From: Deferribacter autotrophicus
GTDB taxonomy: Bacteria; Chrysiogenota; Deferribacteres; Deferribacterales; Deferribacteraceae
Assembly (NCBI RefSeq): GCF_008362905.1
Contig: NZ_VFJB01000003.1
Coordinates: forward strand, 193,501-257,500
Direction of reading: 5' to 3'
Length of the DNA: 64,000 bases
Positions within the stretch are counted from its first letter, which is position 1; the number at the start of each line of letters is the position of its first letter. Of the stretch, positions 33,904 through 36,943 are shown piece after piece. The translations under genes and the position numbers were made by a program. The notes under the pieces are model-generated. The model did no database searches. It was given only the letters and a program-made list of their open reading frames with translations, and was not told the origin of the DNA.

Positions 33904-34623
33904 ATGAAATTCAAAGCAAATGCAATAATTAATTCCTATGATGTTGATTTTAAAAGTGAATTGACAATAAATGCCATAGCGAAATATTTTCAACTTGCTG
34001 CTATTAATCATTCAAATAAAGTAGGTTATACAAACGGTTTTTTTACAGAAAGCGGATTTACATGGATTCTTAATAGATTGCATATAAAAATTTTTGAGTA
34101 TCCAGTTTATATGGATAATATAGACATTACTACCTGGAGTAAAGGTGCCAGAGGTTTTTTTGCTTTTCGTGATTTTATTTTGGAGAAAGCTGGAAAAAAA
34201 TGTGTTGTGGGTAGTAGTGTTTGGCTTCTGATAGATGTGAAAAACAAAAGGCCTGTAAAAGTTAAGGATGAGATTGTGGAAAGGTACACTGTTGAAGATG
34301 AAGATGCCTTTAATTCTGATATAAGGCGATATAAACCTGATAAAATTGAAAAAGTGGATAGTATTATAGAATATCAGCTTAGATATAAAGATTATGATAT
34401 AAATGGGCATGTGAACAATTCTGTTTATTTTGAGCTGATTGAGGATGCTATATATAGAGAGTATAATAAAAAAATAACTGAAATTAAAATCTGCTATTTA
34501 AAGGAGATAAATCAACATTTCAGAAATGTATATGTTCAGCTTAGAAACAAGGAGAATTCTTTGCATTATTCAATCTGCCAGAAAGATACAGTTTTTGCAT
34601 CAGGTGAAGCTATTGTTGCGTAG
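33904..34623 (+). CDS. Acyl-ACP thioesterase-like protein
   Basis: 239 residues with two hot-dog halves: DFKSELTINAIAKYFQLAAINHSNKVGY...GFTWILNRLHIKIFEYPVYMDNIDITTWSKGARGFFAFRDF and the second half with DINGHVNNSVYFELIEDAI, whose D-x-NxHVNN motif is the catalytic signature of FatA/FatB-type thioesterases. Releases fatty acids from ACP. No Shine-Dalgarno is evident ahead of the ATG. Its end overlaps the exported protein gene by 20 bp, so this is the first gene of a three-gene unit ending in the candidate selenoprotein. Confidence 0.9.
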   Translation: MKFKANAIINSYDVDFKSELTINAIAKYFQLAAINHSNKVGYTNGFFTESGFTWILNRLHIKIFEYPVYMDNIDITTWSKGARGFFAFRDFILEKAGKKCVVGSSVWLLIDVKNKRPVKVKDEIVERYTVEDEDAFNSDIRRYKPDKIEKVDSIIEYQLRYKDYDINGHVNNSVYFELIEDAIYREYNKKITEIKICYLKEINQHFRNVYVQLRNKENSLHYSICQKDTVFASGEAIVA

Positions 34624-36571
34624 TCTAACTTTAATTTTTCTTTTATTCACGGTTATTTCCACTGGTTTTGCCCAAGATAGCCCATTGCTATCGCTGAAAA
34701 AACTGTTTCCTGATGTAAATGTTTTGGAAGGTGGTGAACTTAAATGGTTAACCACTGCTTTTGATGTGGAAAAATCAGGAGATTATATAACGCTAAGAAG
34801 GCACTACACTTATTTTGGTGATAAGGAAACTACTATACTAGATATAAAAAGGAAGAAGACTTTTAAGATTGTTGCAATGCTGTTTTTTGCTAAGAATGCT
34901 TTGAAAGCAAATGAATTATTTAGTGATTTAAAACAGATGAAAGCAGATTTTTCAAAAAAAATCTCAGTGGGTGATAAAGGGATAATTTTTGCTAAAAGAA
35001 GGAATAATGGTTTTAATGCAGATTATACACTGATTTTTTTAATGAATAATTTTGTTGTAAAACTTGAGGGGGATGATGGATTTGCGGTAGTGGATTTTGC
35101 GGACTACTTTGTAAAAAGTATAAGAAATTTTATTGCAGAAAACCTTGAGTATTACCTTCTAAACAGTATTGTTTTAAAAGTTGAAAAAGAGGGATTTTTA
35201 ACAAAGGAAAAAGAGATAAATATTTCAGAGGGGATGGATAGCGATATAGTGATTGAAGGGCATATAGAAGATTTCGATGGAAATTATGTTAGCGATGCAA
35301 GAATTTATGTAAAAGGGATCAGCGTTGAGACTAAAAGCAACCAGAATGGAGATTTCAGAATATTTTTGAAACTCAATAAAAATAAAAAGAAAGTAATAAA
35401 AACTAAGCTTTACTTGGAAAAGAAAAAAAATGAGAATAAAAGCTTGTTACCAGTGTATTTGCTAATGTTAGAGGGAAATAAAATTTACAATAATATTTAC
35501 ATAAAACCAGATATTCAAAAAGTTTTCAAAGCTGAAAAAAATAAAATTTTTGATTTGAATATAGAAAATTTCAGTATTGAAGAAAACAGGTTTAATTTTA
35601 CTATTAACTGTTCAAAAGGTTCATTTTTTAAATGTCAACAAATGGTATCTGGTGAAATTGATAATGATGGTAGCATTAAAGGTAGCTGGTTTGGAACCGG
35701 GGGAAAAGGTGAAGTAAAAGGTTTTATTTTGAAAAAGACAAATAGTGTAAAATATCCTGTAAAAAAATTTTGCAAAATAATGAGTTTTGCAGGAAATGTG
35801 GAAGGGAATATTTTAAAAACGAATCAGCACTTACTTTTAGGCTCTTTAGATGACTATTTAAATTTACTCTTTTTGGATTGTAGTAAGCTACTAAGTAATT
35901 ATTTTGTAAAAGAAGTTACATTAAATATGTTTTTCCCAAATGAAAATATTAATAGAAAAGAGTTGGTTTTATTTACAGGCAATATTAGCGACAACTTATA
36001 TCAGATTTATGATGAAATTTTAAAAGGAGCCATAAATAATGGCGTTGTGAAGTTTCAGTTATCGGGTAATAATGTTTATGAAGAGAAATTTTTAATTGTT
36101 TACAATGGTATGGAATTGTTGAATATGGATGATGAGAAAAGTTTTGTAGAAGTTGAAAAGTATGATTTTAATATTAATGCTCAGCAGGGAAAAATGTTTG
36201 CTAAGTTTATTCCAAACAATAAAGATTATGTGAGCTTTAGGAATAGGATTGCGAAAGATGGCAAACCTGATATTGCTATAAAATTAACTATTTCTCAAGT
36301 TAAAGGGAATTTAAAACAGATCGATGTGGTTTCAAAAGGGAGTATCAAGCTGCTTTGGAATACAAATCCTTTGGATATTTATCCAGCTATAGCAGTTTTT
36401 GAAAGGAACAGATATTTGAATGATGAAAAAGGTAGGATAAATTTAAAATTAGATGGAAATAAAAAAGATTTTGTTTTATATATTGCTGGTTCAGAATTAA
36501 TGGATAAAAGAAATACTGAATTAATTTTGAGAATTGATAATGAAAAATATAAAGTAAGGGTTGAGGATTAA
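34604..36571 (+). CDS. Large exported protein, unknown
   Basis: The most plausible start is the GTG at 34604, giving a signal peptide (LLLRSLTLIFLLFTVISTGF, cleaving near AQDSP); the frame reaches further upstream only inside the thioesterase gene. About 655 residues, soluble after the signal and probably periplasmic. Residues near 200-240 (VIEGHIEDFDGNYVSDARIY followed by VKGISVETKSNQNGDFRI) resemble a carboxypeptidase-regulatory-like beta-sandwich. The rest has no motif that I recognise. The TAA stop is 1 bp before the ATG of the selenoprotein candidate. Confidence 0.8.
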   Translation: MKLLLRSLTLIFLLFTVISTGFAQDSPLLSLKKLFPDVNVLEGGELKWLTTAFDVEKSGDYITLRRHYTYFGDKETTILDIKRKKTFKIVAMLFFAKNALKANELFSDLKQMKADFSKKISVGDKGIIFAKRRNNGFNADYTLIFLMNNFVVKLEGDDGFAVVDFADYFVKSIRNFIAENLEYYLLNSIVLKVEKEGFLTKEKEINISEGMDSDIVIEGHIEDFDGNYVSDARIYVKGISVETKSNQNGDFRIFLKLNKNKKKVIKTKLYLEKKKNENKSLLPVYLLMLEGNKIYNNIYIKPDIQKVFKAEKNKIFDLNIENFSIEENRFNFTINCSKGSFFKCQQMVSGEIDNDGSIKGSWFGTGGKGEVKGFILKKTNSVKYPVKKFCKIMSFAGNVEGNILKTNQHLLLGSLDDYLNLLFLDCSKLLSNYFVKEVTLNMFFPNENINRKELVLFTGNISDNLYQIYDEILKGAINNGVVKFQLSGNNVYEEKFLIVYNGMELLNMDDEKSFVEVEKYDFNINAQQGKMFAKFIPNNKDYVSFRNRIAKDGKPDIAIKLTISQVKGNLKQIDVVSKGSIKLLWNTNPLDIYPAIAVFERNRYLNDEKGRINLKLDGNKKDFVLYIAGSELMDKRNTELILRIDNEKYKVRVED

Positions 36572-36572
36572 A

Positions 36573-36722
36573 ATGGGCGATTACATCGGTTTGATAATTT
36601 TTGTATTACTGGTGGTTGTGTTGAGTTTTTTCAGAGGTGGCACCTGAGGCGTTGATTCATGTAGTATCGAGGATCGATACAAGAAAGATAAAAAGAAAAA
36701 TAAAACTAATAAGAAAAAATAA
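36573..36722 (+). CDS. Candidate selenoprotein: 49-residue membrane protein with in-frame TGA
   Basis: The ATG at 36573 is preceded by GAGG at 6 nt, inside the end of the previous gene (1 bp after its stop). Codons run MGDYIGLIIFVLLVVVLSFF, RGGT, then TGA (36645-36647), then GVDSCSIEDRYKKDKKKNKT and NKKK with TAA at 36720. The frame before TGA is a full transmembrane helix; the frame after it is a sensible, lysine-rich cytoplasmic tail in codons typical of the region. Reading TGA as Sec gives GGTUGVDSC, a U-x4-C redox-like pair next to a GGxUG motif reminiscent of eukaryotic SelK/SelS. A SECIS-like hairpin follows at the right distance. If TGA is a true stop, a 24-residue hydrophobic peptide results. 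Confidence 0.65.
36664..36680 (+). promoter_or_regulatory. SECIS-like hairpin downstream of the TGA
   Basis: GTATCGA-GGA-TCGATAC is a perfect 7-bp stem with G at the first loop positions (or 6 bp with loop AGGAT). The loop begins 23 nt after the TGA, within the 16-37 nt range known for bacterial SECIS elements, and it lies inside the coding frame as bacterial SECIS elements do. Alternative: a chance hairpin, or a weak terminator without T-run. Confidence 0.6.
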
Positions 36723-36747: not shown

Positions 36748-36943
36748 TCAATATTGCACAGTACATAGTTAAATATCATGAACGCACAACCATGTGTTTA
36801 ACATATTGATAATAAAGAGATTGCTTCGTCGCTTACGCTCCTCGCAATGACGCAAATAATGTTGTCACCCTGAGCGTCAGCGAAGCAATCTTTTGTTTAT
36901 CATAAAGTTACACACTTGAAACGTTTTTTATTGTGCAATGCCC
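36748..36943. repeat. MITE-like palindromic element (copy C), about 196 bp
   Basis: Same family as 30975-31166: left end ATTGCACA (36753-36760), inner words AGATTGCTTCG, CTCGCAATGAC, GCGTCAGCGAAGCAATC, and right terminal repeat TTGTGCAATGCCC (36931-36943). It occupies almost the entire gap between the selenoprotein candidate and the convergent 2Fe-2S protein gene. Non-coding. Confidence 0.72.

Follow-up and report, generated by a model that had tools for sequence, protein, structure and literature searches.

A very probable membrane selenoprotein of 49 residues in Deferribacter autotrophicus and its apparently undescribed family

The window analysed here is a stretch of 64,000 nucleotides of Deferribacter autotrophicus (contig NZ_VFJB01000003.1, positions 193,501 to 257,500), and the selenoprotein gene with its elements and the two genes upstream of it lie on its plus strand. 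At 36573..36722 it contains a frame that runs from an ATG at 36573 to a TAA at 36720-36722 and is interrupted by a single TGA at codon 25 (36645..36647). With the TGA read as selenocysteine (Sec), the product is 49 residues long (MGDYIGLIIFVLLVVVLSFFRGGTUGVDSCSIEDRYKKDKKKNKTNKKK). The ATG is separated by 1 nt from the TAA of the preceding gene (36569-36571), and a GAGG ribosome-binding site (36563..36566) is located 6 nt 5' of it. Codons 4-20 (36582..36632) are predicted to form a transmembrane helix, YIGLIIFVLLVVVLSFF; the Sec codon comes about 5 residues past the predicted helix end and is followed by 24 residues, the median for the family being 23. An initial annotation had proposed the 49-codon frame, the in-frame TGA, the 1-nt gap, the GAGG site and a complete helix 5' of the TGA, and each of these was confirmed in the sequence. 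The helix is a family trait: in 99% of 105 members, hydropathy over 19 residues peaks above 1.6.

Two features follow the TGA. The first is TGT, encoding Cys30 (36660..36662), the usual partner Cys; the U-x4-C pair noted at the outset is common in the family (76 of 105 members) but not fixed. The second is a hairpin resembling a bacterial SECIS element (bSECIS; 36664..36680), with a stem of 7 bp (36664-36670 / 36674-36680) and the apical loop GGA (36671-36673). It had been described as starting 23 nt past the TGA, which is correct for the loop but not for the stem, which starts at 16 nt.

Upstream lie a gene for an exported protein of unknown function (34526..36571, with the GTG at 34604 as the likely true start) and one for an acyl-ACP thioesterase family protein (33904..34623), both of which had been suggested as partners. 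The thioesterase is merely co-located and is not a conserved neighbor. Of 18 Deferribacterales regions, 14 have the exported protein immediately 5' of the selenoprotein gene, and three more have a longer upstream protein that BLAST did not join to it; conservation of this place, by the exported protein or a longer one, is limited to Deferribacterales. As called, the ORF of the exported protein overlaps the thioesterase gene by about 100 nt (34526-34623), and a start at GTG 34604 would leave an overlap of 20 nt and give a signal-peptide-like N-terminus.

The machinery for Sec insertion is encoded in the genome. selB was matched above the curated cut-off in the window's own assembly, and a selA-type ORF, identified by position and sequence without an HMM run, lies directly 5' of it as in a selA-selB operon. 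tRNA-Sec (selC) is present with the anticodon TCA (Sec tRNA UCA), and selD (L067, G000:C3:293464-294384, outside the window) itself holds an in-frame TGA. All four genes that the initial annotation had wanted to see checked are thus present. In selD, the hairpin (UAGGUCC-GGA-GGACCUA) is built like that of the window gene, with a GGA triloop on a stem of 7 bp, and serves as an internal positive control for the latter as a SECIS element. No TGA was found in the formate dehydrogenase-family genes of this genome that were searched.

Searches of Deferribacterales by tblastn and profiles identified the gene in 20 other genomes, each with TGA at the same codon (21 of 21 with the window); two of the homologues are in the named records Deferribacteraceae bacterium UBA1873 and Denitrovibrio sp. 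BM704. Within the order, selB was detected in 18 of 21 gene-positive and 2 of 25 gene-negative genomes. The three carriers without a selB match at the cut-off used (G016, G021, and G022), like eight gene-carrying drafts of the large phylum treated below, may plausibly be incomplete, which is untested.

Published bSECIS constraints demand a loop of 3-9 nt, a G within the first two loop positions, a spacing of 16-37 nt and an MFE of at most -7.5 (PMC13188914). The window hairpin, GTATCGA-GGA-TCGATAC, satisfies them with a 3-nt loop, G in first place, a spacing of 23 nt and an MFE of -8.0 kcal/mol, and its folding energy is unremarkable (z -1.4). Since folding energy alone is too weak for a SECIS claim, synonymous recodings and other positions were used as controls. 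A SECIS-type hairpin (score at least 9) was present in 78% of 65 members versus 5.8% of their synonymous recodings; for Deferribacterales, the figures were 21 of 21 members and 0.8% of recodings. At control positions in the 65 members, the same criterion was met in 11% further downstream and 5% upstream. The codons of the hairpin, AGT ATC GAG GAT CGA TAC, are identical in all 21 members of the order save for one ATC to GTC exchange, which converts an A-U pair to a G-U pair. ATC, GAG, CGA, and TAC are minority codons locally, and ATC GAG GAT CGA TAC would be drawn jointly with a chance of about 2e-4 under local codon usage. Conservation of these codons is well beyond chance, and as it extends to synonymous sites, the RNA and not the protein alone must be under constraint.

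Outside the order, the Deferribacterales profile gave a weak match in another phylum (E 0.002), not significant alone, with a TGA at the expected place. A profile built from this match after follow-up, and used for a wider search, identified members in about 29 genomes over many other bacterial families; a further profile of 23 wider members detected the gene in one large phylum (the G358 phylum), where about 141 of 336 genomes have it. Altogether, homologues with TGA at the Sec codon occur in more than 180 genomes. Outside Deferribacterales the proteins are built as helix-LPxLG[VI]xT-U-[hydrophobic]-x3-C-charged tail, and family members have about 50-60 aa and one N-terminal transmembrane helix. 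The Deferribacterales and wider groups are joined by hhalign (probability 95.5, E 1.4e-8) and by bridging sequences such as FPKLGVSTUMSEACSIEDRYKKKKNSK and FPKFGIHLGUGANADSC, and the Sec column alone is invariant in a 29-member alignment. No relatives were found in searches of phages, plasmids, and viral contigs. By sequence comparison, the window gene is thus placed in a predicted selenoprotein family spread widely over Bacteria.

SECIS-like elements recur in the wider group. The commonest loop offset is +23 nt (33 of 84 non-Deferribacterales members), and stem sequences vary while pairing stays; the homologue first matched in another phylum has CTGTCGA-GGA-TCGACAG, a compensated version of the window hairpin. 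In 7 of the 84, no hairpin was found by the criterion used. Four members contain two TGA codons (LPKLGLPSUGAP...PIPTUDGPSCSIGGQSKK; L204, L198, L195, and L194 in G674, G654, G589, and G694), and the second one (PTUDGPSC) has its own hairpin of 7-9 bp with a GGG or GGA loop at exactly +23 nt.

The part of the frame beyond the TGA behaves as coding sequence. With the hairpin excluded, pN/pS of the tail is 0.23 in frame versus 1.56 and 1.23 in the other frames (10 independent pairs). Of 105 members, 101 have a tail of at least 15 codons, and the tails are hydrophilic, with Lys at 17% and Phe and Trp nearly absent. selB is present in 29 of 29 positive genomes outside the order versus 150 of 339 in the background (p ~1e-11, uncorrected for phylogeny). 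The link is weak in the large phylum (133 of 141 gene-positive genomes versus 167 of 195, p 0.008), because selB is nearly universal there. Co-occurrence with selB, selection on the tail, tail length and composition, and the SECIS hairpins are four independent lines that support readthrough, and we regard Sec encoding as close to certain; that the window gene both encodes Sec and belongs to this family is also very likely. No experiment stands behind Sec encoding, and translation past the UGA is inferred from the selection pattern only. The initial annotation would have been refuted by a genome without selB or selC, by a lack of homologues with Cys or UGA at this position, or by homologues all ending there. 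Neither the first holds, as the machinery is present, nor the others, as the homologue search it proposed returned relatives that carry TGA at this codon and whose tails continue past it.

Two other accounts of translation have to be weighed. Were the TGA an ordinary stop, the gene would encode a membrane peptide of 24-29 residues, and the hairpin would be a regulatory or terminator element. In its favor, the part up to the TGA has a ribosome-binding site and includes the whole transmembrane helix, and the hairpin is small with a modest z-score. This account does not explain why the tail is under purifying selection in one frame only, why Cys and a hydrophilic tail are conserved past the TGA, or why the site is strictly TGA, with no TAA or TAG seen among the members. 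It is also at odds with the near-confinement of the gene to the company of selB, with the second hairpin at +23 in two-TGA members and with the match in architecture to the selD hairpin, and we consider it very improbable. Still less credible is a pair of coupled ORFs, in which the TGA ends the first and an adjoining ATG (TGAATG) starts a second one for the tail or a thioredoxin: ATG does directly follow the TGA in 52 of 105 members, including a thioredoxin fusion in G269, but the other 53, the window gene among them, have another codon there, mostly one that cannot start translation (GGC, GCT, GCC, GGT, ATA, ATC, CTC, and others), and keep Cys, tail, and hairpin, and the residue after the TGA is hydrophobic or small in nearly all members, as for a coded position.

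Reading the TGA as Sec raises the matter of Cys forms. The family profiles scored Sec as Cys, so that Cys versions would rank high; searching about 720 genomes with them brought up none that was convincing. Candidates were rejected as follows: FPRLGVQTCANPD in G568 is without a helix and a chance match; TGC/TGT fragments in G048, G088, G381, and G440 are likewise without a helix and look like chance; and seemingly stop-free matches ending before the Sec column had a TGA directly after. All genuine members outside the order have an in-frame UGA except one copy in G296 (L153), where CGA replaces TGA (LPAIGISTRMSDGCK) and a stop soon follows, leaving a short broken frame; this copy looks damaged or may be an assembly error. 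As Sec-predominant families are known, i.e., FdhA, SelW-like, GrdA, and GrdB (PMC1794560), the absence of Cys forms here is uncommon, though not without precedent.

Members have a slightly acidic N-terminus and a basic segment behind the helix, a pattern that by the positive-inside rule suggests a cytosolic Sec; this is an inference, as topology was not measured. Gene neighbors were compared between a near (<1.5 kb) and a far (1.5-6 kb) zone in 68 non-Deferribacterales regions. Thioredoxin genes (13 versus 2, p 1e-6, one of the 13 being the fusion itself) and FmdB zinc ribbon genes (14 versus 1, p 6e-8, all on the same strand) are concentrated near members, and CcdA (5 versus 0) and ArsR (7 versus 3) are likewise enriched there. 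In G269 (L145/L118), helix-LPKMGVPTU runs in frame into a thioredoxin domain; with an ATG right after the TGA, a separate thioredoxin start is also possible. Single neighbors read from sequence as OsmC, AhpD-like, rubrerythrin-like, and thioredoxin reductase share the redox theme.

These observations suggest a scheme in which SelB and tRNA-Sec would decode the UGA of codon 25 as Sec, guided by the hairpin (7 bp, GGA loop) located 16-33 nt 3' of it. The resulting protein of 49 residues would span the membrane once, probably N-out/C-in, with a Lys-rich cytosolic tail and a selenol at or near the cytosolic membrane face just past the helix. The selenol may reduce an oxidized species at the membrane, or take up or pass on electrons, and, where a nearby Cys exists, could form a selenenylsulfide with it that cytosolic thioredoxin, an inferred partner, would re-reduce. 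A selenenylsulfide cannot be general, because some members lack the partner Cys or have it at a distance. The inference rests on other phyla, since the Deferribacterales gene adjoins the exported protein of unknown function and not thioredoxin. A membrane-anchored selenol redox relay or reductase served by thioredoxin is the role we prefer, with about an even chance of being right.

Two further roles were considered; they concern function and the two accounts above translation, so that the weights given to the four do not form one distribution. One possible but unlikely role is in metal or metalloid handling, where selenolate and Cys would act as ligands of soft metals or organometals in sensing or efflux. 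It would fit the ArsR-type regulators directly upstream in several genomes, the FmdB zinc ribbon neighbors, and, in the vicinity of a few members, genes for heavy-metal RND or metal-binding proteins, but thioredoxin, CcdA, thioredoxin reductase, OsmC, AhpD-like, and rubrerythrin-like neighbors point to thiol or peroxide redox, one genome has the thioredoxin fusion, and the partner Cys is not universal. Somewhat more doubtful is membership in a larger membrane complex, e.g., with CcdA or the upstream exported protein, as a small regulatory or assembly subunit whose Sec would act as a redox switch. The tiny size, the conserved place behind the exported protein in Deferribacterales, and the CcdA genes adjoining five members are in keeping with this, whereas the regions examined show no one large membrane partner shared between lineages.

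A likeness of the GGxUG segment to eukaryotic SelK and SelS had been pointed out. It holds only for the inferred topology, as SELENOK and SELENOS also have a single N-terminal transmembrane helix (type III), a positive cytosolic tail, and Sec on the cytosolic side; the GGxUG wording is confined to the Deferribacterales branch. SelK and SelS carry Sec behind a Gly-rich segment, 2-3 residues before the C-terminus, and Cys forms of them exist (PMC10650576). In contrast, Sec of the window protein lies right past the helix, 24 residues from the C-terminus, and its family is without a Gly-rich segment between helix and Sec, has a bacterial SECIS inside the gene, and lacks a convincing Cys form.

The selABCD machinery and an in-gene bSECIS are shared with the 119 prokaryotic selenoprotein families and subfamilies cataloged in May 2026, nearly all of which have Cys homologues; a single-pass xTU membrane protein of about 50 residues is not recognizable among them (PMC13188914). 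When 29 members were scanned against Pfam and NCBIfam release 20, there was no match near the curated cut-off; weak hits to Pfam EphA2_TM, DWORF, DUF5337, and similar models were below cut-off and taken as helix-only. KCU-star/DUF466, TsoX/TsoY, and the hypothetical proteins DG/DW/DF are likewise small or uncharacterized bacterial selenoproteins, and DG has a GUxG motif, but their Sec motifs differ from that of the window family. DG, DW, and DF are reported to have many Cys homologues (PMC12013277), and DG/DW/DF-type models are placed in NCBIfam by a 2026 review (PMC13188914); the window family matched no NCBIfam model, including those for these small families (for DG, model NF049953, without a direct alignment). 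Sec-containing FmdB-family and thioredoxin-linked selenoproteins recall the FmdB ribbon and thioredoxin genes that are the commonest neighbors here; they are separate soluble proteins, whereas the window family is a membrane protein without a Trx fold or zinc ribbon, save for the one fusion. Neither the motif nor such a family was found in the full-text literature; subscription papers, preprints, and full protein databases were outside the search, and a prior description is not excluded. With no counterpart in Pfam, NCBIfam, or the 119-family catalog, the initial impression that no described bacterial family matches was borne out, and the family is apparently undescribed.

For nearly all bacterial selenoprotein families, discovery went by way of Cys homologues, which makes Sec-only families a blind spot; deep-Sep may miss selenoproteins without Cys homologues, as its authors state (PMC12013277). 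The family provides a concrete Sec-only case, carried by about 40% of the genomes sampled in one phylum and by scattered genomes elsewhere. We think it somewhat probable that it is among the more widespread bacterial selenoprotein families, overlooked with its ~50 residues, no Cys homologues, and an ORF of 25 residues to gene callers, and that it provides a selenol at the membrane interface, served by cytosolic thioredoxin and apparently irreplaceable by cysteine. As a tiny membrane selenoprotein with an LPxLGVxT-U motif, a SECIS inside the gene, versions with two Sec residues, and a link to thioredoxin, it lends itself to mechanistic work and makes it directly testable why selenium is retained for one function although most selenoproteins can do with cysteine.

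Two minor observations were made. A second, related membrane selenoprotein (...VVPRLKPPTSFSCPTUATKRPHSAGRRNNK) is encoded in G532 and G402 (L206 and L207), genomes that have a standard member as well, with a hairpin at +24. In the window, an intergenic inverted repeat, GATTGCTTCGTCGCTTACGCTCCTCGCAATGACG ... GTCACCCTGAGCGTCAGCGAAGCAATC, lies just 3' of the selenoprotein gene at 36800-36900 and is probably a dispersed repeat.
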